Shown here in pieces: positions 35,911-56,374 of a DNA stretch of 64,000 nt; within the stretch, counting starts at the first letter, position 1; each line of letters begins with the position of its first letter. The DNA lies in contig VCMS01000222.1 of the NCBI GenBank assembly GCA_022539475.1, positions 62,001-126,000 of the forward strand, given 5' to 3'. The notes under the pieces were generated by a model that saw only the letters and a list, made by a program, of their open reading frames with translations, searched no databases and was not told the origin of the DNA. The position numbers and the translations under genes are program-made. Source of the DNA: Gracilaria domingensis. Taxonomy: Eukaryota > Rhodophyta > Florideophyceae > Gracilariales > Gracilariaceae.

Positions 35911-36074
35911 TAATTCATCCTAATTTTTCTAATGTGCATTAAAATGTTTTTGATCTTTGTTTATGAGAAGTTCTGACTACGTACCTGAGGTAGTAGTTAA
36001 ATTTCTGAAGTACAGTACTCTCCAAATTCCATATCGGATTGCCATATTTGAATATGCATCTGTCTCCCGCAATT

Positions 36075-37770: not shown

Positions 37771-37774
37771 GCAA

Positions 37775-37927
37775 TCTGCGGCAGATGCCGCAGAATGCAC
37801 CTCCACCATAGTGCTGTATCGGTAGAACAAATACGCACTCCGAGAGGATGAGGCGCGAAGCGCCTCATCCTCTCCGTTCCTCATGTAGGGAACCATGCCC
37901 AGATGCATGGTTCCCTACTTGAGGAAC
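37775..37927. repeat. Cluster of three hairpins
   Basis: Hairpin 1: TCTGCGGCA-GA-TGCCGCAGA at about 37775-37794. Hairpin 2: perfect 15-bp arms 37842-37856 and 37860-37874 with loop GAA (arm GAGAGGATGAGGCGC). Hairpin 3: arms 37876-37898 and 37905-37927 with one mismatch and a 6-base loop (arm core GTAGGGAACCATGC). Hairpins 2 and 3 are separated by one base. Confidence 0.9.
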
Positions 37928-37973
37928 CTGCACCTGCAACTCGTGAGCTACGTCCGCATCAAAAGTCATTTAC

Positions 37974-38486
37974 CTGTATACGCAAGCAGAAAGTATCCAT
38001 AAGTTAGTCAATGATCCGTTAGATACATTTGAAATGCGATGGAACGTACCATTGATAAAACCAAACAGAAACGTTGCGCTAGAAAAGTGGAGGGACCTAG
38101 TAACTCGCAAAAGGAAGAAGAAGCAGGAAAGGGATCGGTTAGATTACCAGCCCACCATCATCGTAAAGCGCGAAAGGTGTCGAAGCGAGAACTCACAAGC
38201 AAGGACACCAAGAATGCCCATGCAGCAAACATACCGCAAGATGCGATAAACGAGAGAGCAGCCTATGTCCCAACCAAGTACCAGAATCGCCTATCCCGAA
38301 CAGCCAGAGATCGATCTTGAGAGACGAAATGAAATTGGTCGTTTATCTGTATAAGCAAGCAGAAAGTATCCATAAGTTAGTCAATGCTTCGTTGGATACA
38401 TTTGAAATGCGATGGAACGTACCATTGATAGAGCAAAACAGAAACGTTGCGCTAGAAAAGTGGAGGGACCTAGTAACTCGCAAAAG
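37974..38486 (+). repeat. 140-bp direct repeat, 374 bp apart
   Basis: CTGTATACGCAAGCAGAAAG at 37974 recurs as CTGTATAAGCAAGCAGAAAG at 38347. Both copies run to CTAGTAACTCGCAAAAG at about 38113 and 38486, with few changes. The shared frame (QAESIHKLVN, DTFEMRWNVPL, KWRDLVTRK) looks like a former coding piece that was duplicated. Confidence 0.8.
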
Positions 38487-38780
38487 TAACCCAAAGCCTT
38501 TTTCCTGCCGTTTACATGTCGCAGAGCGCGAAGAGACGTGGTGAGGATTGGTTAGTTTAGAACAAAGATACGTAGAAGTATATGGAAGCACGTACGAAAA
38601 GACTGCACGGAAAGACTGCACGGAATTACGGATGCGGATGATGTCCGCTTTATGGAGGCGTCCATTAGGCGGACATGAAGCGTACCTCATTCTCTTCCCC
38701 GCACTCTACTTCGTAGCGAGTGCGAGAGCGGAGAAAGGTACGACGGAGCGCCGCTCGTGATCCATGCCATCCACATCTTC

Positions 38781-38807
38781 GCGTTCTACTCCGGCGGAGT
38801 AGAACGC
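38781..38807. repeat. Perfect 13-bp hairpin
   Basis: GCGTTCTACTCCG at 38781-38793 pairs with 38795-38807, with a single-base loop. It lies about 240 bp upstream of the transposase start. Confidence 0.85.
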
Positions 38808-39002
38808 GCGACGGTAACGGTAGGTCGGACGCCGGAGGCGCGGCGGCGGCGGTGGAGGGAAGAGATGTATTTTTCTGTGCGAGATTGGACAGATGTACAG
38901 CGTACAATGTTGCGAAACCACAGGTTTATAACCAGTGGTAGATAATACGAGAAGTACACCCTTGTGTTGAGGTCGACGTGTACCTACGTTCCTTTTTGAA
39001 CG

Positions 39003-39016
39003 AAAGCACGTGCTTT
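39003..39016. promoter_or_regulatory. 14-bp palindrome in front of the transposase gene
   Basis: AAAGCACGTGCTTT, perfectly symmetric, with a CACGTG (E/G-box-like) core, 30 bp before the first ATG. It could be a factor- or transposase-binding site. Confidence 0.4.
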
Positions 39017-39045
39017 AAACTCAAAATATATTCTCCGTTCTGAGC

Positions 39046-42000
39046 ATGACGTCGATATTGACTGTCGCTCGACCTCCTTCTCCCTTCGGACGACCTTCCC
39101 TTGCAGTCTTTGTCGTTGTTTCTCGTTCATTTCTTCTTCCCATGGTCTACTACTGTACACATAAGAAGCGTGGGTGCCCCTTCGTTACTCGCCGAGGAGT
39201 CTTATCTCTTCAACAGCATGTCAACCATTGCCCTTTTCGTCTGAAAGCAGCGCTGGAAGACGACAATAGGCCGCCCATTCGGAGAAGCAAGCGTCTCAAG
39301 CTTTCCGCGCCCGCGCCCGCATCTTCCGAAACGGTCACTGCCCCTTGTCGCCTTCCCGAGCCTCCGGTGTCCGAGGACATCGTCGACCCCACTCCGTGCG
39401 CCCCTCCCATTCCGGACACTTTGCATTGTGTTCCTCCTTCCCCGGGTCCCGCGTCATTAGAGCGAGAACACGGAAGCAGTTCCCGCCCAGTGCCTTCTGA
39501 GGAGGCCCTCGGTGATTTGCATATGGATTATCTCACGGTTTGTCTGGCTTCAGTAGCTTCCAACCTTGGTCATCGTGAGGCAGACGAGCTAATTGGGCTA
39601 CTTTTAGACCCGCGATTCTCGCAAAAGCGATTCAACGAGACCATAACAAGTTCCAAGCGCTGTACAGAACTGAAGAACGCCATTTTCGAACGATACGCCT
39701 CAAAGGACGGTTTCGATCGAAGAACTGTCTCGCCAGAAGGATGTAAGTTCAGCGCCACCCTCTACACGAGAGACCCCGTTCAGACACTTGTGAAACAGCT
39801 CCAGTTGGCTAACAAAGAAAACACATTCTTCCACCCTATACCTCAGACCCACTCCACGAAAATATCTCACCCCATGTCCGGCTCTCTCGCAAGAGACGCC
39901 ACCTCAAAACTTAAGGAAATGGTCATGGGCTCTTTGGATAGTAGAATAGTGTGGTACTCCCAAGAAATAAGTTACAGTGAATCTTTCCTAGGTCTTCTGC
40001 AGGTATACACAGATAAGTCTTCAACAACTCTAAAGCAAACATCGGTTACCGCCTATCCTCTTCACCTCATATTTCTCGACTTCTCCGACGAGCTACGCCG
40101 TAAGTGCATCCGTGTTGACCCCACAGTAGTGGCATACTTTCCTACCACACTGATCGAGGTTTCCACATCTGAAGCAGACGCAATGCCATTCGTTTCTAGC
40201 AAGTCTCTACGCGAGTCCAGGATGCAAATCCTTCAAGAATCTCTTCGTCAAGTCCTGGAGCCCATTCTAAATCTCACGCAGAAAGGTTTTCAGTTCATCG
40301 GCGAAGACAAACTAAGTCGAGTGTGCCATCCTCTGCTTGCAAGTTATTGCGCGGATATTCTTGAGGCTAAGGACATTCTGTCCATTCTTCATGGAGCCAA
40401 AAAAACGGAAAGCGCGTGTCATAGATGCAAAGCCCCTCGCTCATCTTTATGCAGTCCTATTCCCACCTCATTCAACGGAAGTTCTCAAAAGCACACGAAA
40501 AGCATCCGAAAGACATACACAGCTATCTTGCAACATGCACAAAAAGACGAGGCGGAAAGACGTCCACGTCGTGCGAGGGAGAGGAGATCTCAAGCGGATA
40601 CTCTGATGCGTTCAAATTCCATATCTCTCATTCCTTCGTTCCTCGAAACCTCCGTAAGCCTTGGAATGACCCCGGGATTGTCTCCATACAGTCTGTTCTC
40701 ATTCGAACCATTACACAACTTGCATCTCGGCATCTCAAAGCTGATAAAAACGGCCACAATCGAGAGACTGCAGTCAGACACCCTGTGCACCACAATAGGA
40801 ACATCTGCATCGCGCTCATTTCGAACGATACGCACCCAACTCCTGAACCATGCAAACGCAATTCTAGCTGCCATAGAACGCGATTCTCCTGCCAAAGGTT
40901 TACATATCGATTTCTCCACGCTGGAGAAAGGCAAATCTTTGAATGGTGTCTTCACGAAAGACGGTCTCCGTGGAATGCTGGAGGCCAAAAACTACAAAGC
41001 ACTTGACATGGTCTTCCCTTTCATAGGAGCATTCTTTGACATATGCTGTGGAGAACAGGACGTTGCCCCAATCACAACCGTTTTCTCTCAGTACTCAGAC
41101 TTGCTTTCGACCTTATTCAGATACAATCGTGACCCGTATTGGACTGAAAGCTCTCTCCTGTGTCTTAGTTCGGAGATTGAAGCCTTCAAGCGTTCCGCAA
41201 CAAAGACTCTGGCGGATTTTCTTCCCTCCAGACTGGGAACTCTGAAGTTTCATCTTCTCGATCATCTCGTGAACGATATTCGCCGTCTGGGAAGTATCAA
41301 GTACTACGACGCAGGCATATACGAACATGCACACCTGCTATTTAAGAGACACTACAAAAAGACGTCCAGAAGAACAGCAACGGCTGTGGAGGAGACTATT
41401 CGCTCCATTGAGCACGGACATGTTAGAAAGCAATGGAATGGCAATACTCCTTACCAGCGTAATCCAGGTTTACCAGGAACTTCCACACAGCTTCCTCGGT
41501 TTGCAATGAGAGGGCATTCTTTCACTTTACGAGCTCTTCAACATTGTGTTTCAAGTATGTCCAGTTCAAAAACATGGACTGCTGTTAGAGAGATGTTCTC
41601 AAGTACGGACACAAGGTCGATTCTTGACCCAATTGGTGAACAGGCCCTTCCTCCTTTCCTCAGTCTCGTGAAAGAAACACTGGATGAGCACTCTATTACA
41701 TACTTCCCAGAAAAGACAAGGATAACTCTGGTGAATTCGGCCCTCGTGAAAGGCGGTTTCGTTCCGACTCCTGAACACTTCGATTCGTCTTCTAAGGCAC
41801 TTAAGCTGGGACGACCCAGATACCGCATCATCCAACGTGTCTTCGCTTCTCCAGCATTTGGTCCCAGTAGAAAGCCAAAGTTTTCCACTGTATTGGTAAG
41901 CGGAGAAGATTCAGAGACTTGGGTTGCCCAGGTAGTCGCTCTGATTCGAATATCTCTCCTTGATTCTGCACTTACCGCACCAGAGGTGGCGTTCGTCCGG

Positions 42001-42300
42001 TATTTCGAGGTTTTACCCCCCGCAACAAACATCGACCACATATTGAAATTCATATCTTTACGGTGGGCTACAAACGATGAAAAGAACCACACTCTTCCGT
42101 TCCCTCGTCATTCCAAAGCGGAGACTATCGTAGAGTTACCTCCTTGGTACGGGATGGTTCCGGCTTCTGCACTACAGGGAACTGTCCATGTTTTTCGATC
42201 AAACTACCCTGCTCCACCTTTTTGTCCTCCACTTCAATGGTTTCAACACCGATTCTACATCAATCGATTCTATCATGATTCAGATGAAGGACCAACTTAG
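39046..42300 (+). CDS. Plavaka/KDZ-like (tnp2-type) DNA transposase
   Basis: An intact 1084-aa frame. An internal ATG at 39142 (codon 33, MVYYCTHKKRGCPF) may be the real start because a C-x6-C-x13-H-x3-C zinc finger begins there. A basic RRSKRLKL signal and a Pro/Ser-rich linker follow. The core has the order seen in fungal Plavaka and related KDZ/tnp2 transposases: FLDFSDELRRKCIRVDPTVV then AYFPT, a zinc pair (ESACHRCKAP), EPLHNLHLGISKLIKT, and TLKFHLLDHLVNDIRRLG with YDAGIYEHAHLLFKRHYKKT near residue 765. These elements move by a DDE-type cut-and-paste reaction. Catalytic acids cannot be assigned with certainty without an alignment. The 3' end faces the minus-strand gene block 20 bp away. 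Confidence 0.8.
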   Translation: MTSILTVARPPSPFGRPSLAVFVVVSRSFLLPMVYYCTHKKRGCPFVTRRGVLSLQQHVNHCPFRLKAALEDDNRPPIRRSKRLKLSAPAPASSETVTAPCRLPEPPVSEDIVDPTPCAPPIPDTLHCVPPSPGPASLEREHGSSSRPVPSEEALGDLHMDYLTVCLASVASNLGHREADELIGLLLDPRFSQKRFNETITSSKRCTELKNAIFERYASKDGFDRRTVSPEGCKFSATLYTRDPVQTLVKQLQLANKENTFFHPIPQTHSTKISHPMSGSLARDATSKLKEMVMGSLDSRIVWYSQEISYSESFLGLLQVYTDKSSTTLKQTSVTAYPLHLIFLDFSDELRRKCIRVDPTVVAYFPTTLIEVSTSEADAMPFVSSKSLRESRMQILQESLRQVLEPILNLTQKGFQFIGEDKLSRVCHPLLASYCADILEAKDILSILHGAKKTESACHRCKAPRSSLCSPIPTSFNGSSQKHTKSIRKTYTAILQHAQKDEAERRPRRARERRSQADTLMRSNSISLIPSFLETSVSLGMTPGLSPYSLFSFEPLHNLHLGISKLIKTATIERLQSDTLCTTIGTSASRSFRTIRTQLLNHANAILAAIERDSPAKGLHIDFSTLEKGKSLNGVFTKDGLRGMLEAKNYKALDMVFPFIGAFFDICCGEQDVAPITTVFSQYSDLLSTLFRYNRDPYWTESSLLCLSSEIEAFKRSATKTLADFLPSRLGTLKFHLLDHLVNDIRRLGSIKYYDAGIYEHAHLLFKRHYKKTSRRTATAVEETIRSIEHGHVRKQWNGNTPYQRNPGLPGTSTQLPRFAMRGHSFTLRALQHCVSSMSSSKTWTAVREMFSSTDTRSILDPIGEQALPPFLSLVKETLDEHSITYFPEKTRITLVNSALVKGGFVPTPEHFDSSSKALKLGRPRYRIIQRVFASPAFGPSRKPKFSTVLVSGEDSETWVAQVVALIRISLLDSALTAPEVAFVRYFEVLPPATNIDHILKFISLRWATNDEKNHTLPFPRHSKAETIVELPPWYGMVPASALQGTVHVFRSNYPAPPFCPPLQWFQHRFYINRFYHDSDEGPT

Positions 42301-42320
42301 CACGTTGATCTTGTATAGCC

Positions 42321-43837
42321 TTAAACATTAAGGGCACCATCCTCTACATGTTCACCTTGTGGTGCCTTTTCTTGTGATCCTGTGCTACCTCCGAAATCGT
42401 TCATGTCCATTTCCATGAACTCCATATCCCCTTCCTCGCATTCACCAACGAAACAATCGCTAATAGACCCCAATCTTCGGCTCACACTGTCAATAAAAAA
42501 TTGTTCTTTCACAGTGAGGTAAAGTCTTCCATTTGACGGCATTCGATATCCAAATGTAGCCTCTCTCATGTCATTACCAAGAACCTTAGTCCAATCTTCC
42601 GTTGTCGTTCCAAAATTATGAAACTCGCTGGAATTGGTCCTCAAGACATGTTGCCTAACATCCCCCAGAACATTCTTTAAACACAGAGGTAGCAGTTGGG
42701 CAAACTTCTTTGTAAACAGTTTCTGTCTATGGCCACCCCTTGACACATCCGTACTTAGAAGGCTCACAACCGTCAACACCCAAGCGTCTAAACGTGCGAG
42801 CAACAGTATTGTGCCATCTAAAAAGGTGCCCGTATCCTTGTCTTCCACATCATACCCAATAAACTCCTTCAGTACTTGTACCCCGACACGATTTCGGAAG
42901 AACAAGTCTTGATCTTCCGTCGGCATATCCTCGACATTGTCCGCATTGGAGTACTTTAGACGAACAAATGGGGCTTTTCTCCACTATGAAGTGTTCGGTA
43001 CACCATTTTCGTCAAGACGCAGTATGTTCTCCAGCGCTTCCTTCAACTGCATTGTGAGTTCGTCAGCATTCTGTTCTACCAGCTTTGTTCTTCTCCAAAT
43101 CAGATCGTACCCCAGGAGCAGAAATAGTTTATCCCTCCTATTTCTCTTCCGAACGCCCACGACGTCACTCATGGTCTGCCGCATTCTCTGCCTAAGGCAC
43201 ATATCTGCACAAAGTTCCAGTATACACCTGTCGGTAAGAGATGCTTTTCTAATACCTTCCCAGCTCAACTCCTTCGACTCGCTTTCAACCATTTTCTTCA
43301 GCAAAGCATCTGGCCCCCCTCTACCGACGATATGAACATGCCAAAACTGCCCAAGAGCTCCACGGGGTTTTTAGGAACCATGTATGAACCACCCTCCTCC
43401 GGCTCAATAAGCCCTTCCCCACTCTCAGTTGCGTCTTCCACCTTCTCGGCACGGTTACCCCAATTTCGGGTGAGCCACTCACCTTCGAGCCATAGCTCAC
43501 TTGTTTCTCTCCTTGCCCACGTCAGCATGTTGTGATACACTGCTCGAGAAACCCCTCGAAACTCGTCGCACACCTCAATTTTATGCTTCTTTCGACCTGT
43601 CTGCCCAGGTTCACCAGCACGTGTACTCCTATCTCCCTCCTGTTTCAGTGCCCCTCTTAGCCCTTCAATGACTAGATCCTTCTCTTCAAGCCTCTTTTTC
43701 AAAGCCGTACTCTGCTCTTGGGCGACCTTCACTAGAATTCCCCGAACCATCAAGTCCTCTTGTAGCGTCTTAACCTTTTCTTTCAAGCAATTCAGTTCAT
43801 TTAAAAGATCACGTCTGTTCATAGAGGTTGAATTCAC
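42321..43837 (-). pseudogene. Coiled-coil protein of the cargo block, frame disrupted
   Basis: Three pieces belong together. 43837-43298 has a Leu/Glu/Lys coiled coil (LNELNCLKEKVKTLQEDL) and then KIEVCDEFRGVSRAVYHNML. After a one-base shift near 43350 the frame continues WHVHIVGRGGPDALLKKMVE to the second piece (43304-42984), which is in the same frame as 42926-42321 but separated by a single TAG at 42986-42988. The joined chain would be about 500 aa, ending in an acidic tail (ECEEGDMEFMEMDMNDFG). No family is recognised; a coiled coil suggests a structural or DNA-associated partner. Upstream text in the same frame (GTWDSSDNEITPNPA) hints that it may have been fused to the next gene. Confidence 0.5.
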
Positions 43838-43928
43838 ACCAGTGTGGATATCTTCCGGTGTTTCCCTAGCCTCTTCGGCGACAGGCCCCGGTAATGCCGC
43901 AGGATTCGGTGTTATTTCGTTATCAGAA

Positions 43929-44714
43929 CTATCCCATGTGCCATACCCTTAGACACGAGAGGCTGCAGGCGTTCTGTGTCCACCCTTGGCACGGCTCCGA
44001 GCTCCAACTCCGGTGTCTGTCCTCCTCCATGGCATCGTATATCAGATGAATTGGGCCTCGTAAGAGCTGCAACGGCCCCCGTTCTGGAAAGAGGGGAAGG
44101 TCGAGGAGTAACTCGTCTATCAGTTGTCTTCGATTTCTTATAGTCTTTCTCCCTTGTCCGGACCCATTGCGAGGCATAATACGATTCATAGCGGCCCCAG
44201 TTCTAGAAGACAGGGAGGGACGTGACGATCTTAATATACTAGGGCTCTCACGACTTCTCGTCATTGTCCCTTGTTGTCCAGATCCACTGGGCGGCGTAAC
44301 CCGCGCCCCAGTAGCTCCGGTCTTCGATATCGGCCGGGGACATGAAGGTTTTGGTGTCATACGAACCTCTTCAGTTCCAGTTGTCATGCCCTCCTGTCCT
44401 GACCCGCTGGGCCGAGTTACCTCATCTTCTTGAGGAGCAGAGACAGATGCACGATTTGCATTATCGGCAGTTGACGGCACGACATCGTTCGCTGATCCAC
44501 GAATTCTTGACGCAATCCCGGAAGACGCTCCGCTGCGAGATGGGCGAGAGAGTACTGTAGAAGGACGCCCACTGACTCTCTCCTTCGTCGAGGACGACTT
44601 CCGTTTAGGAAGTGCGGTGCTTGTAGCCTGATTCGTATCATCCGATGCTCTTCTCTTCTTCTGTCCACTCTTGTTCCGCTGCGTACTATTTCGCTTTCTC
44701 GGCGTTATACCCAT
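43929..44714 (-). CDS. Basic Ser/Thr-rich low-complexity protein
   Basis: 261 aa starting at ATG 44714 (MGITPRKRNSTQRNKSGQKK). Strongly basic and disordered, with several potential nuclear signals and about three imperfect repeats built on PSGSGQ-G-MT and TGA-RV/NRIMP, roughly 45 residues long. The last ~30 residues may be out of phase: another frame reads GGGQTPELELGAVPRVDTER and on into the downstream coiled-coil gene. The composition suggests a chromatin- or DNA-binding tail rather than an enzyme. Function unknown. Confidence 0.45.
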   Translation of the reverse strand: MGITPRKRNSTQRNKSGQKKRRASDDTNQATSTALPKRKSSSTKERVSGRPSTVLSRPSRSGASSGIASRIRGSANDVVPSTADNANRASVSAPQEDEVTRPSGSGQEGMTTGTEEVRMTPKPSCPRPISKTGATGARVTPPSGSGQQGTMTRSRESPSILRSSRPSLSSRTGAAMNRIMPRNGSGQGRKTIRNRRQLIDELLLDLPLFPERGPLQLLRGPIHLIYDAMEEDRHRSWSSEPCQGWTQNACSLSCLRVWHMG

Positions 44715-44945
44715 GTTGTGGAGATAAACGGGGTAATGAAACGAAATTGTTGGAGGGGGGGTGCATGGTTCAGATATTCCGGGAGACTCCGCAGTTCCTG
44801 CTTTTTAGGAATTTGAGGTGCCCAATGGGTCGCAAATATCGCCGTTACAAATAGATGAAGAGCTCCAGTGTACATGTACAACGCGTATTGCAGGCAGCTG
44901 CAACATTCACAAGCATATTTACTTTCTATTCGGTACTGAACTCAT

Positions 44946-45707
44946 CTATTGCTCCAATGTCAGAGCCCAGTCCCAGGCGTACTGCTCTCCGTAGTTGAAA
45001 TACAACTCTTCGCCCCTCTCAATATCTCTTACTGCTCTACAACGAAGTAGAGCATAGTTAGAAAGGTCGGACTTAAACTGTATCACGGACTTCGCTTCCA
45101 CCATCTGCACATTGGCACTTCGAGTCCTGTTTGACCGGGGCTGCGATAAATCGGGATCCCCGGCATGATATCCGGCGTCGTTAATGTAGCCCCCGATACA
45201 AAAAGGCGCCGGGACAATGTACACTTCGCTCTCCTTTCTATCCTGAGCCTGTCCTGGTCTGTTCCTCAGGTGCAGAAACTCCGTACCAGTCACAGTGACC
45301 ATCATAGAAAACAACTTGTACCGCACTGGAGTTGCTCCGAGACAGCCACTTCCATACGTTAAGTGTCTTTCCTTCCGGTTCGTCAGATCCGTGTATACCA
45401 AAGTTCCATAAAAATGACAGATAGTTTCCCCAGCCAATATCTTATGTTCCGTGAACACCCCCATACCAGCACGGGGATGTCGAATCTTAGAAGATGCTAC
45501 ATGTAAGCGATAGCGATTGGCTTCAACAGTCAACAGCATATGCATATCCATTAGATTCAGAGCTCCTCGGTACTTCTGGTCCCAAAGATCTACAGTATGC
45601 TGTCCACACTTGTCGACAAACTCCCAGTCCTTCCAGTATCTTCCTAGAACTGAGTAATATGTGCAGGCATCACTTGGTACTGGGGGTATCCAAATGGAGC
45701 CTCCCAT
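44946..45707 (-). CDS. SET-domain protein
   Basis: 253 aa, single frame. SET-domain hallmarks: GMGVFTEHKILAGETICHFY (SET-N, with the G-x-G cofactor region), then GGYINDAGYHAGDPD, NRTRSANVQMVEA (in the place of the NH-CxPN pseudoknot) and RCRAVRDIERGEELYFNYGE followed by QYAWD (SET-C, catalytic Tyr). It is therefore a probable protein-lysine methyltransferase. The NHSC-type motif is atypical (N-R-T-R-S-A-N-V), so activity and target are open. The gene follows the DNA methyltransferase on the same strand, with its ATG directly after an in-frame TGA. Confidence 0.75.
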   Translation of the reverse strand: MGGSIWIPPVPSDACTYYSVLGRYWKDWEFVDKCGQHTVDLWDQKYRGALNLMDMHMLLTVEANRYRLHVASSKIRHPRAGMGVFTEHKILAGETICHFYGTLVYTDLTNRKERHLTYGSGCLGATPVRYKLFSMMVTVTGTEFLHLRNRPGQAQDRKESEVYIVPAPFCIGGYINDAGYHAGDPDLSQPRSNRTRSANVQMVEAKSVIQFKSDLSNYALLRCRAVRDIERGEELYFNYGEQYAWDWALTLEQ

Positions 45708-45788
45708 TCAAGCCGACCTCGGTCCCGATGTGGAACCCGTTCATAAGTCGTTGAAGCAGCATCCACCACCTCCTGTTCAACCACGATG

Positions 45789-46912
45789 TCATTCTTCCCC
45801 TCGCGAAGAACTTCGGCCATAAGAGTCGTTAATGGTGCTTCGCATGGCTGAACATGGCCTATTCTTCTCGCACCCCAAGAACTTCCTATGCTTTGTCAGC
45901 GATAGGCACGCCATACCCGTAGAAAAAGTTCCCGCGAACATGTCCATGACAAGATCACCCGGTTTTGTGAAGCGACATATCAACTCTTTCATCAACTCCC
46001 TGGACTTCTGCTCCGGTCTTATGTACTGCCCACTTGGTACTGAACTACCTGGCTCATTTACCTTCCATGTCAACCACTCCCCCGCTCTCGGTTTTGGCAC
46101 CCGGTCAATTACATTCCTGTTAGCCGGGAAAGTAGAAGGAATGAAATTTTCTCCTCAAATGGAGTAAGACTGGCTTCCTCCGATGGTCGCAATCCACGCT
46201 TCACCCCATGAACGGCGTACTCCGTTACGGGCTGTATCCCAAACTTCCGTGGATTCCCTCCAACATTACTTCGATCCCGGATGAACACCAGTGGATTCCC
46301 ATCCACTTTAAACGAAGGAATGAGTTCTGGTTTACCTTCGCTTCCAGCTTCATCTTTCGTACTCGCCGTTTCCGAAAGTATCCTGTGCCAAACATGAAAC
46401 TGTGCCATGGCACAGAATATGATGAAGTGCCCACCTGACCGAAGCGCGGAACTTATTAAGTCATCCGTACGGATCATGTCATCCTCACTGAAGACATCGT
46501 GAGCACTATTCCGTTTGTTCCTCTTCCTTCGAGTGTTAAAGGGAGGGTCTGTTAGGACAAGCTGTGCCTCACCCCATAAAATCTCACTCTGATTCACAAA
46601 CGTTTCGTGTGTGTGCCTCAGGTCCTTCATGTCACAGTTGTACGCTACAAAGTGTGACTTTCTCATCCCCTTCCACACCTTGTCCATATTCATTCGAAGG
46701 AGACTGGATATCCCCTTCATGGGCGGCTCAATACCAGTCTTTTGGATGTTGTACCCGGCAACCCGAGATTCATGCTCCGCACGATTCACCGGCTTCTCGA
46801 AGTCGTCGCCATCGGAGCTCACGAGATCTATATACTCTCGACGAGGTGGGGCTGGGGCAGACTTGGTCGAAGAAGGTTCGGCATTACCGGAAGTTTTAGG
46901 GTTTTCGTCAGT
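45789..46912 (-). pseudogene. Beta-class DNA amino-methyltransferase (N6A/N4C), frame disrupted
   Basis: Motif IV, QLVLTDPPFNTRRKRN, comes first; then GGHFIIFCAMAQFHVWHRIL, NVIDRVPKPRAGEW, PEQKSRELMKELICRF and the AdoMet motif I GDLVMDMFAGTFSTGMACLS. Catalytic motif before the cofactor motif is the beta order of amino-methyltransferases; most relatives are bacterial or phage N6-adenine or N4-cytosine enzymes. The frame changes at about 46112, within CTAACAGGAATG, which could be a frameshift or the 3' end of a ~60-nt intron. It seems to shift again near 45835, where another frame continues LTTLMAEVLREGKNDIVVEQ. No ATG precedes the conserved part except after codon 34, and the open frame begins inside the stop of the gene before it. 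Confidence 0.65.
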
Positions 46913-48077
46913 TCAATATCGGGTTTCGCGTGAATGCCACATTGAACCCTGCCGCATGACGCATATCCTGTATCGGTTTCCATAGCAACTCCGAAAAGTT
47001 CTGAAATCGTGCAGGCAACTCACCGGAGTCAGAACCAGATACGGTATCCATCCGTATCTCCGAAAACTCTATCCAGTTCCTCATCTGATCAACCCGTAAG
47101 CTATAGAGGCTATCGTGGGTGCATATGGTTTCGAGGTCTGTCAAAAACTCCTTAGCCAGTATTCGCAGGTTTGTATCGCATTCATCACTCAAGGTCTCCA
47201 CCGATCCACTAGTACTGCTCTGTGGCACATCCTTTGTGTTGAATCGAGTACTCTGGCTCGGCGGGGCATAACCAGACTCCCGTGTCTCTAGCGCTGTATA
47301 CTTCAACGTCTGCATATTCATGTAAATGTATGGTTTCACCATGTGCTGAACGTTCGTGTATCCAAGATGAGCCGCAAAACAACTCCATGCCCATACGACC
47401 TCACTGATAGCGAATCCCAGTCGATCACAGTTGTCTTTGGAGAACGACGTAAAAGTGGGTATGTACACAGCTGGTGCATGGTTCACTTTTCGTTTCTTTT
47501 TCGGTTGTTTCTTCTTCATCATTCGGATGTTGTCGTTCTCTCCCATTATGTGGCCGAGGTATGATAAGTATATAACGACCTCAAATGGGTTCACAGCTGT
47601 TGGTGGGATGAACACTGTCGTCTTCAGAACCTGCTTTCTCCTGGTCATGAAATAACCAACCAGGCATCGCACCGGTAGGTATATACCCATATCCATAGAG
47701 AGAAGGAAAAAATCGCGCAGTCTCTGGTCCTCATCCCCGTCCTTCTTGTCAAGAAGCTTCGTTACAAGATATCGCTGTTCCACAGGTTTGTTATTCACAA
47801 CACTCTTTCGCAGCTGTTGCAGTGTCAAGTTCTGCAGGTTCTTGGAGTTAGTGGCCTCCTCAAACATCTTCCTTGCCTCCGGAATATCCTTATAGTTCTC
47901 GGCGCAGAACTCTATTAACCCTCTAAACCCCACGTCCCGTGGCCGATCAGGGCCTCCATCGCTGTTTGCCAAAGCATCGCGAAGAACCAAGAAAAGTCTG
48001 ACATATGCATGGAACGCCGGAGGCGGAGCACTCATGTCGATAGGATGTATCTCCTCTCCAACATCGGTGGAATCCAT
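46908..48077 (-). CDS. Unknown nuclear-type protein of the cargo block
   Basis: An intact 389-aa frame from ATG 48077-48075, only about 18 bp from the left inverted-repeat arm, so it is the first gene read leftward from the palindromic region. Around residue 200 it has KKKQPKKKRKVNHAP, containing the classical PKKKRKV nuclear localisation sequence. No enzyme motif is recognised. The C-terminal part is acidic, with LRILAKEFLTDLETICTHD. Its stop overlaps the start of the methyltransferase frame, suggesting tightly packed or formerly fused genes. Confidence 0.6.
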   Translation of the reverse strand: MDSTDVGEEIHPIDMSAPPPAFHAYVRLFLVLRDALANSDGGPDRPRDVGFRGLIEFCAENYKDIPEARKMFEEATNSKNLQNLTLQQLRKSVVNNKPVEQRYLVTKLLDKKDGDEDQRLRDFFLLSMDMGIYLPVRCLVGYFMTRRKQVLKTTVFIPPTAVNPFEVVIYLSYLGHIMGENDNIRMMKKKQPKKKRKVNHAPAVYIPTFTSFSKDNCDRLGFAISEVVWAWSCFAAHLGYTNVQHMVKPYIYMNMQTLKYTALETRESGYAPPSQSTRFNTKDVPQSSTSGSVETLSDECDTNLRILAKEFLTDLETICTHDSLYSLRVDQMRNWIEFSEIRMDTVSGSDSGELPARFQNFSELLWKPIQDMRHAAGFNVAFTRNPILN

Positions 48078-48094
48078 CGCTTCAGCGCAAACAA

Positions 48095-48189
48095 CGGAGG
48101 CGAGCCTTTAAATGGCGACTTACGCTGGGCACCCCCGCTTTCGGCAGCTCCTCCCAGCGCACTGCCAGTCTCGTCCGTGTCCGTGTCCG
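48095..48189 (+). repeat. Left arm of the large inverted repeat
   Basis: CGGAGGCGAGCCTTTAAATG and the following ~75 bp are found inverted at 48871-48964, with a few small indels (about 90% identity by eye). The arm lies in the 5' leader of the leftward 389-aa gene. Confidence 0.85.
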
Positions 48190-48190
48190 C

Positions 48191-48232
48191 TCGGAGCGAT
48201 AGCGTCGCGTGTCGGAGCGATAGCGTCGCGTG
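48191..48232. repeat. 21-bp tandem duplication
   Basis: TCGGAGCGATAGCGTCGCGTG twice without a spacer, just inside the left arm. Confidence 0.85.
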
Positions 48233-48344
48233 TCGGCCACGTCGCGATTCGGAGCTATTGCAACGGTCCCGTATTGTGCTAAAAGTCGCGGATCAAGTGG
48301 GTGTGAAGCGCTAGTTTTCTCTAGTTTGATATATGTGTACGGCG

Positions 48345-48672
48345 TGTGCAGCGAAATCACTGCCGGAAGTGCCGGGAGGAGTGTTTTGGGAGGTCTCCGG
48401 AAGGCGCCGGAATGTGACCAGAACGTGCCCGCGGGCGGGGGGGTCGGTCGTGTTAGGGTAGGTACCCTAACACGACCGGACCCCCCCGCCCGCGGGCATA
48501 AATCGCACATTTTTCAAAAAATCGCCAAAACGTGCCCGCGGGCGGGGGGGGTCCGGTCGTGTTAGGGTAGCTACCCTAACACGACCGACCCCCCCCGCCC
48601 GCGGGCACGTTCTGGCACATTCTGGCGCCTTCCCGGGACCTCCCAAAACACGCCGCCCCGCAGTGATTTCGC
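48345..48672. repeat. Central composite palindrome with two G-rich hairpins
   Basis: GCGAAATCACTGC at about 48350 pairs with GCAGTGATTTCGC at about 48660. Inside, GTGTTTTGGGAGGT pairs with ACCTCCCAAAACAC, and AAGGCGCC with GGCGCCTT. Two direct copies of a long hairpin form the centre: 48427-48497 and 48531-48609, each with stem core GGTCGTGTTAGGGTA, a run of seven or eight G, and GCCCGCGGGC ends, with a one-base bulge. A 30-bp AT-rich spacer separates them. The G runs could also form quadruplexes. Confidence 0.9.
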
Positions 48673-48870
48673 TACACCCGGCCGCCGGTACGTTGGCGCC
48701 GCTGTCCACGTTTATTGGCGGGAGTAGGCTGTACATGAAAGTGAATGAGTGTACTCTTGACTACTATGCAAAGCATTTGAAGAGCACGATTAGAGAGCGC
48801 GACCATTGCTCGCGTGAGTCATCATTGCGCGAACTCCACGACTCTAAAGCGTACAATCAGCGTGCGAGCG

Positions 48871-48964
48871 GCCACGGACAGGACACGACGAGACTGGCAG
48901 TGCGCTGGGAGAGCTGCCGAAAGCGGGGTGCCAGCGTAAGTCGCCATTTAAAGGCTCGCCTCCG
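48871..48964 (-). repeat. Right arm of the large inverted repeat
   Basis: Inverted counterpart of 48095-48189, ending AAATGGCGACTT...CGGAGGCG when read on the minus strand. It lies in front of the rightward gene block. Confidence 0.85.
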
Positions 48965-49028
48965 TTCTTGTATCGTCCAGAGCGAGCGTATTGTTGATAT
49001 ACACCTTTCACTGCAATAGCTGTTCAAC

Positions 49029-49360
49029 ATGAAGCCAACTCGTGTTCGAAAGCGTACGCAAAGCGTGACTCCTCGCACTCGGCGGAGCACTCGATCATTG
49101 CAAGGTGGAATGCGGTTTCTCTGCAGATGGATATTGAGAATGAAGGAAAGGTGATAGTCGGGGAAGCGTTGTTGCATGGAATTGGAAGTGTTCTACGCCG
49201 CGAGTTGAACGGGAAGCAATTGGACCCAGGTCTTGTGGTGGTTCATAATATTCTCATCAGTCGAAGCTGTCACACGTTCTACCCTTACCGGGCGGAGGGC
49301 CTGGATCTTCCACAATACATCCAGGATCTCGGACGGCCGCTCCTTGGGATGAGAAAATGA
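49029..49360 (+). CDS. Start of the rightward block, basic N-terminus (uncertain)
   Basis: The first ATG after the right arm (49029) gives MKPTRVRKRTQSVTPRTRRS, very basic, resembling the start of the leftward low-complexity protein. In another phase from 49127 a 77-aa frame has MDIENEGKVIVGEALLHGIG and HTFYPYRAEGLDLPQYIQDL. They may be parts of one protein joined by a shift or splice. No family recognised. Confidence 0.3.
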
Positions 49361-49519
49361 TGGAACCGGTGGCAGCCAGCATTCCGGCGTCAAGCGACGA
49401 ACGGTGAGCGCTATGAGTGAGGTGATGACGCCGACAAGCCGCACGGAGCCAATTCGAAGTTCATCAACAACGAGAGGTAGCGCATCAGTAGCACCTCCGC
49501 GGGCAGGTCCGTCGTCTTT

Positions 49520-51265
49520 ATGAAGCGGTCTATGGAGACGAGAGCATCCCCAGCTACGAAGCGGACAGGTCAAACAAAGTCTACCTCCGCTACGAAGCCC
49601 ACTGCGTCGAAAAGGGCATCTCCTGCGATGAATCAGACCGTCGACACAAGGGGAACTTCTGCGTCGAAACAGACGGTTCAGCACGGGACGGCTGTGCAAG
49701 AAGAGGAAGATGAGATCATAAAAGGTCCCCTTCCAGACGCGGATGCGCAATCCGCACAAGGAGCTGGTCCATCTGTACCCCAAACTGCACTAGAAACTGC
49801 GGAGCAGCAGGACGATGACGTTGTGCTTCTGTCCGCAAGAATGGCACGTTCAAGTGTTCTGGCGAGCGGTCTGGAACACAAGGGACACCTACTCGGAGCA
49901 AACGTACAGACGAATTCGTCAGAAGGTACCAAAGGTGAACCTCAATCAGTACCGGATGGTTGTTGTTACTGTTGACATCACTCTGGTGGACACTCCGCCC
50001 AATTTACTCCGTGGAGTAAGTAAACGCCACGTTGAAGCCCTTGTGAAGAGTATGGAGGAGCGGGGGATATTGCAGTCGATGGGTTCTCCAGTGGTGGCCT
50101 TACAAGATGCTACTACGGGAGAGAGGGATACTGACAAGGGACGCCTAACGAAGAAGTGCTTCATTGTAGATGGTTTGCATCGTCTGAAAGCTATACAATA
50201 TTTGGCAGCGACTGGTGCACCGAATTGGAAGCGATTAGCCAAGTTTTGGCGTTGCAATCTGCTGATACGAAGAGATGGGAGGCCCATTGGGATGAAGGAA
50301 TTGTTATGTGTTGCTTCGTACCTCAATGAGTCGACGAGTACCATGCGAAGGATGATGTTTGCAGACAAGATACACTCTATAGTTAGTGTGGTCGCCATTC
50401 TAATTGAAGATGTTGAGGGGGTGACGCCGCAGACGTGGATCCTGCAGAAGTGACAGAAGTGTTGAAGGAGAGCCAACTGATTGGGACTGTGCAAGAGCGT
50501 CAGTATCTGAGATATGCCAATGTCGCCCTGCAACTCATGTCTCGTGAGGAATGCTGGCTCATTTCGAGGATATATGTGAGAGTGTGAGTGACATAGGTGT
50601 CACACATCTGTCCCATACTCCGCTATATGTTTTGGATGCCGAGGAGTTTTCCTTCATTCTTGATTGTCTTCAGATGTTTCTATTGAAGGGCAAGTCGACG
50701 AAGACAAAGCAATGGAAAAGCTTTGAGGAGGTTCGAGGTTTCTTTTATGATAGAGCAGTGTCTCTGTTCCGCGCGGCTCGAGCAGTGAGGAATGAACTGA
50801 ACGAGGAAGAGTCGATGGAAGTGTTCTGAAACGCGAATCAGTCTGTCTGCTCCATCGAGTGAAGATGACGTTGAGGACCCAGACAACAACGCAGCTGTGA
50901 ATCAGTTCCTTTTGGGACACGTTGTGAACTTCAATACATTGCCGCGTGTTCGGAGCAGGATGAACTCAATTAGAACTGCCACGAATTCCGTTCAGAATCG
51001 ATTGCGGACGATGCTCAAGGTAATTCCGCCCCCCGCACCAGTGAAGCAGTCCGTGACGAAGAGGAGGACTCCCACTGCTGCTGCTGCAACATCTGCCAGT
51101 GAAGAAGGGGAGCCGCGAAGAAGTGCACGAGAACGGGCGCAGGTGAGTTATAGGGAAATTGAGCACGGCCGAAATCGAGGTGCCATAGAAGTTCTGGATG
51201 CTCTGAAGAAGAACAGCGGGCTCCGCCGAGGAAGAAACGGAGAAAGACTTTCACACAACAGATGA
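49520..51265 (+). pseudogene. ParB-like domain protein, frame disrupted
   Basis: A basic Ser/Thr/Lys-rich leader (49520-49820) is followed in another phase by a ParB/Srx-fold domain (about 49940-50440): VVVTVDITLVDTPPNLLRGV, KRHVEALVKSMEERGILQS, then CFIVDGLHRLKAIQYLA. The DG-HR--A motif is the nucleotide-binding core of the fold. Coding-like text continues after one-base shifts at about 50450, 50545 and 50830: VTEVLKESQLIGTVQERQ, MLAHFEDICESVSDIGV, SSEDDVEDPDNNAAVNQF and RRSARERAQVSYREIE. Read through, it would be a protein of roughly 550-600 aa. ParB-fold proteins act in plasmid and chromosome partition or as nucleases; a role here is unknown. Confidence 0.5.
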
Positions 51266-51617
51266 GATCTACTCTGAACAGCATGACACCGGATGACCTG
51301 ATGTCTCAACTAAATGAACATGTGCTGAGAGCAAGGTCGATGAAGGTTCAGTTCGTGGCATTGGAGAGGGAGCGAATGCAGAGAACGCAGGCAGTTCTGC
51401 ATTTGTGGATGACGAAGAGCTTCTTGCTGTGACAGTTCCACGGGTTGTCACCGTCGAGAAAGATGCTGCGCCAGACGATCAGCAAGAGACAGGTGGGGGG
51501 TCATTTGATGACGAGTTACCTACAGCTCTTCCGGAATCTGAGGAGCACGGACTTGTTCGAGGAGACCCATATGATGGCCCACCGAACCCATCATGGTGCG
51601 GGTATGCAGGCTGAGAC
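51262..51617 (+). pseudogene. Small helical and acidic frames between ParB-like and dioxygenase genes
   Basis: 51262-51432 encodes a helical 56-aa stretch (LMSQLNEHVLRARSMKVQF). In another phase 51405-51614 gives an acidic, Pro-rich piece (EKDAAPDDQQETGGGSFDDE). They may be the linker between neighbouring domains of one broken protein. No family. Confidence 0.25.
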
Positions 51618-51649
51618 CGCAGGAATGGCAAGGGAAGAACGTAATTGAG

Positions 51650-53648
51650 CACAAGGACCCCTGGCTCAGAGTCATTCACTTGCCGAAGGACATAGGTCGG
51701 AGCTGCTAAGTGTCTCGAATCTCAGAGATGTACACCATCTTGTCTTTTGGCACGCTGCAAGGGCTGAACATCGCCTACGGGCGGAGACATTTGGTATGCA
51801 GTATCCTCGTACTCGACCGACAGGTATGGATGATGAAGAGGTGCTGTGGGTTGCTGCGAAGGAGCATGACGAATTTGGGCAAATGTTCTTCGCCCGAATG
51901 CAAGCTGAGCTAAGCAGAATGGATATCTGCGTGCTTGATGGCTTTGCGACGGATAATGGGTGTCCCTAAANNNNNNNNNNNNNNNNNNNNNNNNNNNNNN
52001 NNNNNNNNNNNNNNNNNNNNNNNNNNNNNNNNNNNNNNNNNNNNNNNNNNNNNNNNNNNNNNNNNNNNNNNNNNNNNNNNNNNNNNNNNNNNNNNNNNNN
52101 NNNNNNNNNNNNNNNNNNNNNNNNNNNNNNNNNNNNNNNNNNNNNNNNNNNNNNNNNNNNNNNNNNNNNNNNNNNNNNNNNNNNNNNNNNNNNNNNNNNN
52201 NNNNNNNNNNNNNNNNNNNNNNNNNNNNNNNNNNNNNNNNNNNNNNNNNNNNNNNNNNNNNNNNNNNNNNNNNNNNNNNNNNNNNNNNNNNNNNNNNNNN
52301 NNNNNNNNNNNNNNNNNNNNNNNNNNNNNNNNNNNNNNNNNNNNNNNNNNNNNNNNNNNNNNNNNNNNNNNNNNNNNNNNNNNNNNNNNNNNNNNNNNNN
52401 NNNNNNNNNNNNNNNNNNNNNNNNNNNNNNNNNNNNNNNNNNNNNNNNNNNNNNNNNNNNNNNNNNNNNNNNNNNNNNNNNNNNNNNNNNNNNNNNNNNN
52501 NNNNNNNNNNNNNNNNNNNNNNNNNNNNNNNNNNNNNNNNNNNNNNNNNNNNNNNNNNNNNNNNNNNNGGGTTGCTGGCGAAGGAGAATGACGAATTTGG
52601 CAAATGTTCTTCGCCCGAATGCAAGCTGAGCTAAGGCAGAATGGATATTGCGTGCTTGATGGCTTTGCGACGGATAATGGTGTCCCTAAATGGGAGGAGT
52701 TGGAAGAAGTTCGGGAGTTCGGAGATGTGTCGGGGAAGTTGGTGGACTTCTTCGAGAATGAGTATGGAGCGATGCCGGATATACGGAAAGGAGAGGAACA
52801 GAAGTCGTTTGTTCAAATAATCAACGATGATGAAGGATGGAAGGACGGTAGCGATGGACCATTTGAGGGAGAGTGATGTCGACACGTTGGGGTACGGTGG
52901 AGAAGCGGAGGATAATGAGGAGCTCAGGTGGGTTGTAAGGTCGCGTGCTTTACTTGATGTTCGAATGGGTACAATTGCTGCGGCTTTGGGACTATGGGAC
53001 AATGAAAGGGAAGCTGTGAAGATGTACACTCCGAAAACTGGTGGTCGATTTCTGGGACGACGAGAAAGTGCAAGCGCCAGACGCTGCACACCGACTTCAG
53101 TGGTCTGGTTACGAAGGAAACAATGAATACTGGCAACCCCGGATACTTTGTAATGGCCTCTGGGAAAGAGGGCTTTCCTCTCTGGGTGAGCGCTGGAAGC
53201 CATCAACTGGTGGGGATGAACAACCAACAGTTGCGAGTGATGTCGGAGGTGTATCCAGCGAAGAAGATAATCATCCCACCGTACTCTGTATCGTGGGCCG
53301 TGGTGATGTGACACATGCTGGAGCAAGTGGGAAGGACAAGGTGGATAGGCCGAGTCTATGGATTTGCTGGTTAGATACCACATGTACATGGTACCAGAGG
53401 GCTACGCACTACCTGATGCTGTTCATCGGGTGCGGGATTTCCGACCCACGTTTGTCAATGGTGACGAGGAGGAGGAGGCGGAGGATGAACTGTTGTCCGA
53501 TAAGGAGGGTGGGGCGGTTGACATGGACGAAGACCAAGTGGTCGTGGAGATTGGTGTGGAAGCGGACGCCGGTAGAACCGAAGTGCTCGAGAGTAGTAGT
53601 GATGACGATTTGCCAATAATGAGGCTGCGAGCGCCTCGAAGTGGATGA
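51650..53648 (+). pseudogene. 2-oxoglutarate/Fe(II)-dependent dioxygenase (PhyH-like fold), frame disrupted, spans a gap
   Basis: Before the gap: LVFWHAARAEHRLRAETFG. Across and after it: FFARMQAELRQNGYCVLDGF, the usual N-terminal strand of PhyH-type dioxygenases. In successive phases follow KRQTLHTDFSGL (HxD metal ligands, about 53077-53112), GFPLWVSAGSHQ (typical of the fold), VGRGDVTHAGAS (distal His) and KDKVDRPSL (Arg for 2-oxoglutarate), RYHMYMVPEGY, and an acidic tail. At least four shifts (about 52850, 53050, 53290 and 53355) break it. All ligands survive, so decay is recent or the shifts are sequence errors. Such enzymes oxidise many substrates; in other elements related dioxygenases (TET/JBP) act on methylated bases, and that role is only a hypothesis here. 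Confidence 0.65.
51971..52568. other. Assembly gap (N), probably artificial
   Basis: 598 N. The ~120 bp before the gap and after it are the same sequence with small indels, for example GAATTTGGGCAAATG against GAATTTGGCAAATG and GGATATCTGCGTG against GGATATTGCGTG. Confidence 0.9.
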
Positions 53649-53912
53649 GAATGAGATGATTAGTAAATTATGTGTGTCTTGCGAGTATTAAGAGTAGTAT
53701 ACTATTACAAGGCTATACATATGAACATAGAAAAGGTGCGGCAGGCTGGTAATTGAACAAATGTCAAACGTCTTTGGTCCAGTTGCGTCTAATTGCAACA
53801 TGCCAAATGCTCGGTATCGTTAACATCATTGGTGGCACCAGTCAATTCGCAATTGAACATGTAGCGTCCTAACATTTCTGAAACTGCACTTAAGGTTGCT
53901 TTTAAGAGAAGT
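53649..53912. other. Spacer between element-like block and host-like genes
   Basis: No gene. I looked for a terminal repeat matching the 38.9-kb side and found none by eye. Confidence 0.4.
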
Positions 53913-54824
53913 GTGAAACTGAGAAGTCTATACAGTTCCTGTCTATGCGGTACTTGTGGCAGTATGGTGACTGTATCAGGAAAAATGGCAGAGGAACAGA
54001 GAGACTTGGCGGAAATTTCACCAAATACCTTGTCTAAGTTCATATATGCCAATGGTTACGGTATATTAAGTTCCGTTGATGGAACGTTGAGAAGAGAAGG
54101 AGAGTCAATTCCAGAAGAAGTTGTGAAGTGTATGAAGTTCATTGACGAACGTGTTGGTTTCGGACTTGTCACAGGGGGTGATGTGGGCGACGTGGAGGGG
54201 AAAATGGAAGGACTCGGAGACTATAAGTTTGGTGTCTCGGCGAATCATGGAGCTTTCCTGCGTTTCTCTGACGAGAGGGAAATTAAGGGTGCATTCAATG
54301 ATCACACCCTTGACCACACTGTTGACGGACTACTGTTCCTGGCAAGGGATTTGAATAGGAGGCATGGTATTGTGAATGATGATGACAAGGGGTTCGTGGA
54401 GACCAGAAGTGATAGTGGCCTTCCCAATTTCGTGTACAACAAACTGTGGCAGTGGAAAGAAGAAGTGGATTCTGCTATTGGGGACCTGTTGCAGAAGATG
54501 GATGCGTTTGTTATCTATCCCGGCGATAAAAGTTGCGAAATTGTGGACAAGCGATACACAAAAGGAAGCGGAGGAGCAAATCTTGTGGATAATGAACCGA
54601 GATTTATTGATACGGATGACGTCGTGACGTTCGGAAGTGCTTTGAGCGACGGGCCTTTGCATGAGGTAGGCGTGTACGGCGTTCACGTCAAAGAAGATTG
54701 TATCCCGGGTGGAGTACACAACCTGTTCGAAAGCGTGGAGGATGTACATTCGACAATTATGTTGGTGGCTCTGTTGTACGGCTACGAGGAAAAGCAGCAC
54801 GATAAAAACCACCAAGATTTATAA
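53913..54824 (+). CDS. HAD-superfamily phosphatase-like protein, probable pseudoenzyme
   Basis: 303 aa. Homologous along its whole length to the convergent gene at 54855-55825. HAD motif I, normally D-x-D-G-T, reads SSVDGTL: the nucleophile Asp is Ser54. Motif II is VTGGD instead of ATGRD, and motif IV is altered (FGSALSDG). Without the nucleophile no phospho-aspartate can form, so it is likely inactive as a phosphatase and may have a regulatory or binding role. The start is uncertain: ATGs at codons 1, 18 and 25 are possible. The C-terminus has EDVHSTIMLVALLYGYEEKQ, matching its partner. Confidence 0.7.
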   Translation: MKLRSLYSSCLCGTCGSMVTVSGKMAEEQRDLAEISPNTLSKFIYANGYGILSSVDGTLRREGESIPEEVVKCMKFIDERVGFGLVTGGDVGDVEGKMEGLGDYKFGVSANHGAFLRFSDEREIKGAFNDHTLDHTVDGLLFLARDLNRRHGIVNDDDKGFVETRSDSGLPNFVYNKLWQWKEEVDSAIGDLLQKMDAFVIYPGDKSCEIVDKRYTKGSGGANLVDNEPRFIDTDDVVTFGSALSDGPLHEVGVYGVHVKEDCIPGGVHNLFESVEDVHSTIMLVALLYGYEEKQHDKNHQDL

Positions 54825-54854
54825 AATGGTATTGAGATATACACGACACTTTTA

Positions 54855-55825: not shown

Positions 55826-56374
55826 AAGGTGTTTCGTAGTATAAAAAGAGTCTAAGAACGACCATATACGGGTATTGTAGTACTGTTTTAAAACGTTACT
55901 AGAAGGAGAAGTTTTTGCATCGACTTGAAGTAAAGAAAGGATGATTTAGTCATAAATTATATGTACGGGTTCAAGTGGGTAAAGAAAACTGTAAATATCT
56001 TTAACATGAGCTTGGAAATCAAGAAGAGTAAAACAATCTCCATTAGAGGTTGAAACCCATAAAAGGTTTACCTTACTTTATACGGGTGCCCCAAGTAATG
56101 CAAACGCTTAGTTCTTCAGAAATATCACAATATTTGTACTTGTTTCGTTACTAGTATCGTGCACTTTAATGATATGGAATGACCATTTTCTATCTAGCAA
56201 AATTCTAGCGAAGTATTAGTGATAACGGATGTAGGATTTAAAGGGGCATATTTGAACCACAGAAGAACGAACAATATAAGTAATGTAATAGGAACAGGTC
56301 ATTTCGATAAAGTAACTTTTATGTTTAACTATCTCTAAAAGGTTTACAACACCGAAAAGTCATGTGTTCTAACC
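55826..56374. other. AT-rich intergenic spacer
   Basis: No reading frame or repeat of note. Confidence 0.55.

Follow-up and report, generated by a model that had tools for sequence, protein, structure and literature searches.

We describe a mobile element in a 64,000-nucleotide stretch of the genome of the red alga Gracilaria domingensis (contig VCMS01000222.1, positions 62,001 to 126,000 of the forward strand), here called the window, whose own coordinates are used throughout. The block of enzyme genes found there is a single element whose ends are defined and whose copies mostly show 2-bp target duplications; it lies exactly at 37344-60477 and comprises 23,134 bases including a 598-base gap of Ns. 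It is a large Plavaka-type (CACTA-related) cut-and-paste DNA transposon, and we hold it somewhat better than an even bet (probability about 0.55) that it encodes its own two-protein chromatin kit, one protein in which a DNA amino-methyltransferase and a SET domain are fused and another that unites a ParB-like part with an Fe(II)/2-oxoglutarate (2OG) oxygenase. The features that bear on this reading, with protein lengths in amino acids (aa), are the following.

37344-37366, plus strand: left terminal inverted repeat (CGTCTGTCTCTTGCAG...), read in slices of other copies
37377-37474, plus strand: three subterminal copies of GGGTCGTCC (at 37377, 37398 and 37466), possible transposase sites
39046-42300, plus strand: Plavaka transposase, 1084 aa, intact frame (PF18759, E = 5.7e-14)
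44946-48077, minus strand: fusion gene with a PKKKRKV N-terminal region, a beta-class N6A/N4C amino-methyltransferase and a SET domain, broken in the window copy
48090-48189, minus strand: proximal promoter repeat of the fusion gene, with its inverted copy at 48875-48966
48437-48596, no strand: near-perfect palindrome array (units 48437-48486 and 48545-48596)
48875-48966, plus strand: proximal promoter repeat of the ParB-like/oxygenase gene, inverted copy of 48090-48189
49029-53648, plus strand: gene for a ParB-like part and an Fe(II)/2OG oxygenase, some 1300 aa, disrupted in the window copy, with the N gap inside
51971-52568, no strand: assembly gap of 598 Ns with a 123-base near-duplicate on either side
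60455-60477, minus strand: right terminal inverted repeat (...CTTTGSAGAACACAGACG), read in slices of other copies

The boundaries were set by alignment to other copies: DNA of 34000-39100 aligned only from about 37344 onward and DNA of 53700-62000 only up to about 60473-60483. An element end near 42300 or 53648 is thereby ruled out, and the coordinates 39046-53648 given in an earlier note on this DNA proved too short. The copies share sharp termini, CGTCTGT...ACAGACG, with CGTCTGTCTCTTGCAG... and ...CTTTGCAGAACACAGACG at the ends of most copy slices examined and few variants. In the 77.9-Mb, 680-contig assembly, a left near-terminal 32-mer was found at 564 places and a right near-terminal 29-mer at 575 with up to three mismatches allowed, whereas the reversed control of each was found at none. 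The subterminal motif GGGTCGTCC occurs elsewhere in the window only once, inverted, at 41809. Identical 2-bp sequences lie immediately outside each end in 10 of the 12 copies examined at both ends, compared with 5 of 132 pairings of ends across different copies. Other copies run gap-free through the site of the N gap; since this gap and the near-duplicates beside it (51848-51970 and 52569-52690) are uninterrupted DNA elsewhere, the window copy may be rearranged or wrongly assembled.

Pairing 98 left and 100 right places without mismatch, among the matches listed, gave 51 end pairs less than 40 kb apart, which span 6.4-35 kb with a median of 13.8 kb and include 16 pairs at 9-12 kb and 10 at 21-25 kb. 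Four right ends each entered two pairs, which leaves four of the pairs ambiguous, and the longest pair could be spurious. As a rough estimate, about 570 copies at the median length would make up some 7.9 Mb, a tenth of the assembly. One copy, L089, measures 10.3 kb and lacks 39983-47026, 50162-56106 and 57659-58120 while its left, middle and right parts remain and follow one another as in the window, and on contig C168 the middle and right parts stand in order with the same right end. The shared ends, the hundreds of end matches, the duplications and this deleted copy uphold the earlier note's claim of one mobile element carrying these enzymes; the common ends, inverted repeats and target duplications for which it had asked that further copies be searched were all found. 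Transposase copies are 96-100% identical to that of the window (best 42 of 1805 candidates) and left ends 90-98% identical among 40 scored copies, which dates at least some of the spread to recent times. A second copy on the opposite strand begins within 63756-64000, tail to tail with the window element and 3.3 kb away, and is 99% identical to it across the 6.8 kb compared.

The transposase, described as intact in the earlier note, was confirmed as a 1084-aa frame at 39046-42300. It matches PF18759 (Plavaka) with 52.5 bits against a cut-off of 26.3, contains a single CxxC (position 458) and a single H-x(3-4)-H motif (736), the latter ahead of E760, and has a ratio of nonsynonymous to synonymous change (pN/pS) of 0.40 in frame versus 1.36 and 1.25 in the wrong frames. 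According to the passages on this group in Kojima 2025 (PMC12730594), Plavaka and the CACTA-related CMCT group carry C(2)C and H(3-4)H between the catalytic residues and make duplications of 2 or 3 bp, of which the 2-bp form is seen here; PlavakaA has 2-bp duplications and TGT..ACA termini, PlavakaB has CATCA..TGATG, and Plavaka is placed outside KDZ. In our element TGT and ACA sit four bases inward, and because its termini differ we assign it to a Plavaka lineage other than PlavakaA or PlavakaB. The label "KDZ-like" of the earlier note has to be dropped, and KDZ is ruled out, as Plavaka is the only Pfam family found and the duplications are 2 bp versus 8 bp in Zisupton. No relative of the transposase was found in the protein database at E 0.001 by a search that reaches sequences sharing exact words (best 7992 candidates scored). 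Several places in the same genome (C22:687175, C12:68428, C143:1376 and others) score 75-87 bits over another part of PF18759, above the window transposase, and probably represent other Plavaka families. Upstream of the transposase lies a 149-base direct repeat (37965-38113 and 38338-38486, 94% identical), the number of units of which seems to vary among copies.

The earlier note had recognised a SET protein, a beta-class amino-methyltransferase and a PKKKRKV-bearing protein as three separate genes; all three are present, as parts of a single gene. In the window the SET part (44946-45707; PF00856, E = 2.1e-8, above cut-off), the methyltransferase (45789-46822, in two frames) and the PKKKRKV protein (46908-48077) are split by single-base deletions. 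The methyltransferase matches PF01555 (E = 2.2e-12) in its downstream frame and has the beta motif order, since DPPF sits in the upstream frame. Among the 12 best DNA matches (loci L009-L020), three (L010, L012 and L020) contain one open frame of 1045 aa spanning the region of the nuclear localisation signal (NLS), the methyltransferase and the SET domain, so that these "genes" are one gene with both writer domains in one frame. A matching stop-to-stop frame of 1055 codons occurs in 8 of the 150 SET profile matches listed; of these 150, eight score strongly and the other 142 are weaker, most of them with the same length and score. In L010 the N6_N4_Mtase domain (PF01555, 3.8e-15) covers residues 506-743 and the SET domain (PF00856, 1.7e-7; 32.0 bits against a cut-off of 22.4) residues 873-1032, with the catalytic-type motif DPPF from residue 511 ahead of FAGTFSTG, of the S-adenosylmethionine-binding type, from 715, the order of the beta class. 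Its sequence matches in PDB are the methyltransferases DpnA and CcrM; no relative of the fusion was found in the protein database at E 0.001 by a search that reaches only relatives with exact words in common. Relative to L010, all indels in the other 11 loci are losses of one base, with L012, L013 and L020 free of indels, and such one-sided loss of single bases resembles what assembly error often looks like. Calculated from unique substitutions against L010, in frame versus the two wrong frames, pN/pS was 0.57 versus 1.06 and 1.37 for the whole fusion, 0.55 versus 1.01 and 1.56 for the N-terminal part and 0.53 versus 1.60 and 1.98 for the methyltransferase.

The ParB-like protein and the 2OG-Fe(II) dioxygenase of the earlier note likewise merge: both motifs lie on the plus strand within 49029-53648 (ParB-like near 49936-50453, oxygenase at 52604-53648), and we infer one gene in place of two because the open frames of L034 (947 codons), L041 and L042 (653 codons) overlap. 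Proteins P0003 and P0005-P0008 contain both parts and form a ParB-like/2OG-oxygenase protein family without a Pfam family; P0002, a G. domingensis protein without the oxygenase core, was left out of motif counts and of one alignment and kept in others. The frame is under constraint by pN/pS analysis. The oxygenase part has the HxD...H iron triad, the 2OG-binding R and a double-stranded beta-helix, and fold comparison gives the Fe/2OG-oxygenase fold. The first-listed fold matches are, by title, enzymes of small-molecule metabolism; TET/JBP structures are absent among the matches listed, an absence that does not exclude TET/JBP. For the oxygenase part of L041 no Pfam family was found at E up to 1, and a PDB sequence search with the oxygenase gave nothing usable. 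The L042 oxygenase frame and the Gracilaria domingensis protein FGB62_128g110 share 94% identity across 81% of the length of the former. In the ParB-like part, DG-HR is invariant in all six aligned sequences, and PDB sequence and PDB profile searches returned nothing usable.

The fusion and ParB-like/oxygenase genes diverge from starts about 950 bp apart, and the DNA between them is mirrored. The promoter inverted repeat measures 92-100 bases and is 92-99% alike between the arms of the loci, while the palindromes measure about 50 bases, around GTTAGGGTA..TACCCTAAC. From one to five palindrome core units were counted in 23 loci, some of which cover the stretch only partly; neighbouring units of a set are 104-115 bp apart, the sets 350-465 bp. 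This arrangement suggests that the two genes are under common control, and it makes the palindromes candidate sites that the ParB-like part may bind.

The two enzymes meet again in a second family on contig C382, where three SET matches have frames of 1169-1170 codons and one copy was examined (L090 and L091; C382:5000-12600). The protein of L090 (1127 aa) has N6_N4_Mtase (2.8e-16) and SET (5.2e-7) domains and is 25% identical to the window-family fusion over 1104 columns. Its methyltransferase has EPPY, an unusual form of this motif, in place of DPPF, and its SET domain has YINH. An oxygenase gene in two overlapping frames, with the motifs HTDF, GDVFHAG and IRYH, is found some 1.2 kb upstream, with the same strand orientation, and is 37% identical to that of the window family over 306 columns (E = 3e-71). 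As the relative orientation differs from that in the window element, the pair has stayed together while the layout changed, and since both genes recur side by side at such low identity the pair looks, from these comparisons, like a conserved module.

The most likely role of this pair, as far as sequence can suggest one, would be a self-run chromatin switch in which the fusion is the writer and the ParB-like/oxygenase protein its guided counterpart. The fusion would mark one and the same stretch of chromatin on both levels, the DNA by amino-methylation to N6-methyladenine (6mA) or N4-methylcytosine (4mC) and the histones on lysine. By binding the palindromes, the ParB-like part would recruit the oxygenase to the promoter region common to both genes, there to remove or alter marks and keep the genes of the element expressible; the balance of writer and oxygenase would then set silencing against activity, and hence copy number. 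The fully self-contained form of this idea, a one-protein DNA and histone writer opposed by a palindrome-guided partner that oxidises the marks away, we regard as tentative and rather doubtful. The earlier note had proposed an element that writes and erases marks, and half of this is borne out: its writer domains are real and fused, and the oxygenase is at most a putative TET/JBP enzyme or eraser.

Several observations weigh against an intact and functional kit. No fully open ParB-like/oxygenase locus was found among 10, and for the ParB-like part there is no Pfam match and no fold match, the full-length model being poor; that of L034 weakly matches a ParB family of PHROG (phrog_3264, 6.8e-4), which P0003, P0006 and P0008 do not match. 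In the fusion, 5 of 11 loci share a deletion at codon 835, three one at codon 760 and two one at codon 1003, and because identical deletions recur some of the breaks may be inherited; L013 is not fully open despite having no indel, and many of the SET matches listed share a frame of 253 codons. The SET motif of the fusion is YIND, where NH is usual; pN/pS contrasts only modestly in the SET part (0.54 versus 0.89 and 0.83) and gives no evident constraint in the linker (0.81 in frame versus 0.60 and 1.04). Many copies lack SET, with 233 SET places compared to 347 for the transposase and about 570 ends. No matching duplication flanks the copy on C71 (TG, TC) or that of the window (CT, AA), and no Plavaka match is listed on C382 (best 123 of 672 candidates).

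The strongest competitor to the writer-and-counterpart switch, in our view unlikely, is that the fusion and the oxygenase both repress the element, for copy-number control or as a truce with the host. The bdelloid precedent agrees with it, an amino-methyltransferase of the same Pfam family and SETDB1 variants silencing transposons there, as the relevant passages of PMC8885841 report. Joined to this is the proposal, to which we give the same low credence, that the oxygenase acts on proteins or on another base and does not erase the methyl mark, which would suit the metabolic titles of its fold matches. Effective recent self-repression is argued against by the roughly 570 end matches and by the near identity of the transposases (best 42 of 1805).

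A less probable alternative is that the enzymes are passengers, acquired from the host or from elsewhere without benefit to the spread of the transposon. This seems to be true of the epimerase in the right third of the element, which we take to be passenger metabolic cargo, partly decayed. The remaining genes of the element are as follows.

42321-44714, minus strand: basic, coiled-coil-like protein, in intact copies probably a single frame of some 800 aa, from overlapping frames of several loci
53913-54824, plus strand: HAD-IIB (Cof-like) hydrolase, diverged (PF08282, 1.7e-4, just over cut-off; TIGR01484, 9.6e-4, below)
55046-55825, minus strand: HAD-IIB (Cof-like) hydrolase (PF08282, 9e-12; TIGR00099, 6.4e-10, below cut-off)
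56375-57364, minus strand: reductase-like protein (by eye), no Pfam or NCBIfam family
57672-58439, plus strand: ribulose-phosphate 3-epimerase (PF00834, 6e-65), intact in the window copy
58984-60009, plus strand: 341-aa charged, coiled-coil-like protein, of the same length in L089, no Pfam family over cut-off

The first of these proteins is pieced together from overlapping frames that run off their loci, of 501 codons (L012, L013, L014 and L018) and 491 codons (L022, L028 and L032); it has no Pfam family over cut-off in the window frames and no NCBIfam family in L012 and L022. The reductase-like protein matches no family and, by eye, is presumably akin to ketopantoate reductase. The epimerase gene is 5'-deleted in many copies, 57659-58120 being absent from 8 of 23 scored copies and from L089; C320 has an epimerase gene with a better score. 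This metabolic, decaying right third, the commonness of shortened copies and the falling counts from ends to transposase to SET are what a passenger origin of the enzymes has in its favour. Against it, both frames are constrained and share a mirrored promoter, and fusion and oxygenase are adjacent again in a family 25-37% identical, all of which would be unexpected for passengers. Nor are they separate host genes, which the 233 SET places rule out: the SET, methyltransferase and oxygenase genes are not single-copy, and the earlier note's own counter-scenario, in which other transposase copies lack these neighbours or the enzymes are single-copy host genes, does not overturn the reading as one element.

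That two or more nested or adjacent elements were mistaken for one is very improbable, as the mismatched flanks of the window copy, its N gap and the tail-to-tail neighbour are outweighed by the ordered parts and common right end on C168, the ordered left, middle and right parts of L089 and the matching duplications of 10 of 12 end pairs. Slighter still is the chance that an endogenous virus remnant supplied the methyltransferase, ParB-like and oxygenase genes: the methyltransferase part matches the phage profile phrog_67 (1.8e-23), but the element has transposon ends and 2-bp duplications, and no capsid or packaging match was found among the frames scanned against Pfam. As a source, viruses were rejected, scans of viral contigs having yielded no confirmed relative.

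Parts of the chromatin kit have counterparts in known systems. In the passages of Kojima 2025 (PMC12730594) on cargo genes, some fungal Plavaka transposons carry TET/JBP oxygenases; our element resembles them in its CxxC and HxxxH transposase, its 2-bp duplications and the oxygenase inside it, and differs in its 23-kb size, its red algal host, its CGTCTGT..ACAGACG termini, the joining of the oxygenase to a ParB-like part and the methyltransferase-SET fusion. The same source describes oomycete HarbingerS and MuDR elements with SET histone methyltransferase genes inside the transposon, as here; these belong to other transposase superfamilies, and its passages on them mention no fusion to a DNA methyltransferase. 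Bdelloid rotifers silence transposons with N4CMT, which according to the corresponding parts of PMC8885841 is, like the fusion, a eukaryotic PF01555 enzyme of permuted (beta) order tied to histone-lysine methylation. In contrast to the fusion, N4CMT is a host gene with a chromodomain, works with separate SET proteins and is directed against transposons, whereas here both writers lie in one transposon-encoded polypeptide. CcTet of the fungus Coprinopsis, an oxygenase of 6mA and 5-methylcytosine (5mC), is also a eukaryotic 2OG oxygenase, one that acts on 6mA and whose TET/JBP relatives occur in transposons, as stated in the portion of PMC13297926 that concerns it; it belongs to the TET family, and any likeness of the oxygenase of our element to it beyond the 2OG-oxygenase class would be conjectural. 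Bacterial CcrM and DpnA have the same C-terminal S-adenosylmethionine-binding region and beta motif order, and differ from the fusion as bacterial chains of 232-366 aa without SET, judging by length and names. Transposons carrying TET/JBP or SET genes are already known; the titles and abstract openings of the literature searched described neither this element nor any transposon that encodes a fused methyltransferase and SET domain, let alone one paired with an oxygenase across a mirrored promoter.

In the surroundings of the element, an open frame of 170 aa encoding WD40 (60494-61006, minus strand) stops 17 bases past the right end, and the element therefore seems to lie in or beside a WD40 gene. 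Pieces of Ty3-type retrotransposons occur at 62327-63649 and 35939-36250, with an rve integrase core (4e-7) just below cut-off and a chromodomain-like stretch below cut-off; a reverse-transcriptase-like fragment was seen by eye to the left of the element. Two adjacent GMC oxidoreductase genes are found further left on the minus strand (8185-9804 and 10478-12166).

If the reading of a self-run switch is true, this would be a eukaryotic mobile element with its own heritable on/off chromatin switch, and one that predates the divergence of two families whose proteins are now 25-37% identical. Paired with its oxygenase, the fusion would provide nature's own compact means of coupling DNA marks to histone marks. 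The element would also allow a direct test for a role of 6mA or 4mC in red algae, and would be well suited to the question of how silencing is evaded or exploited by mobile elements.

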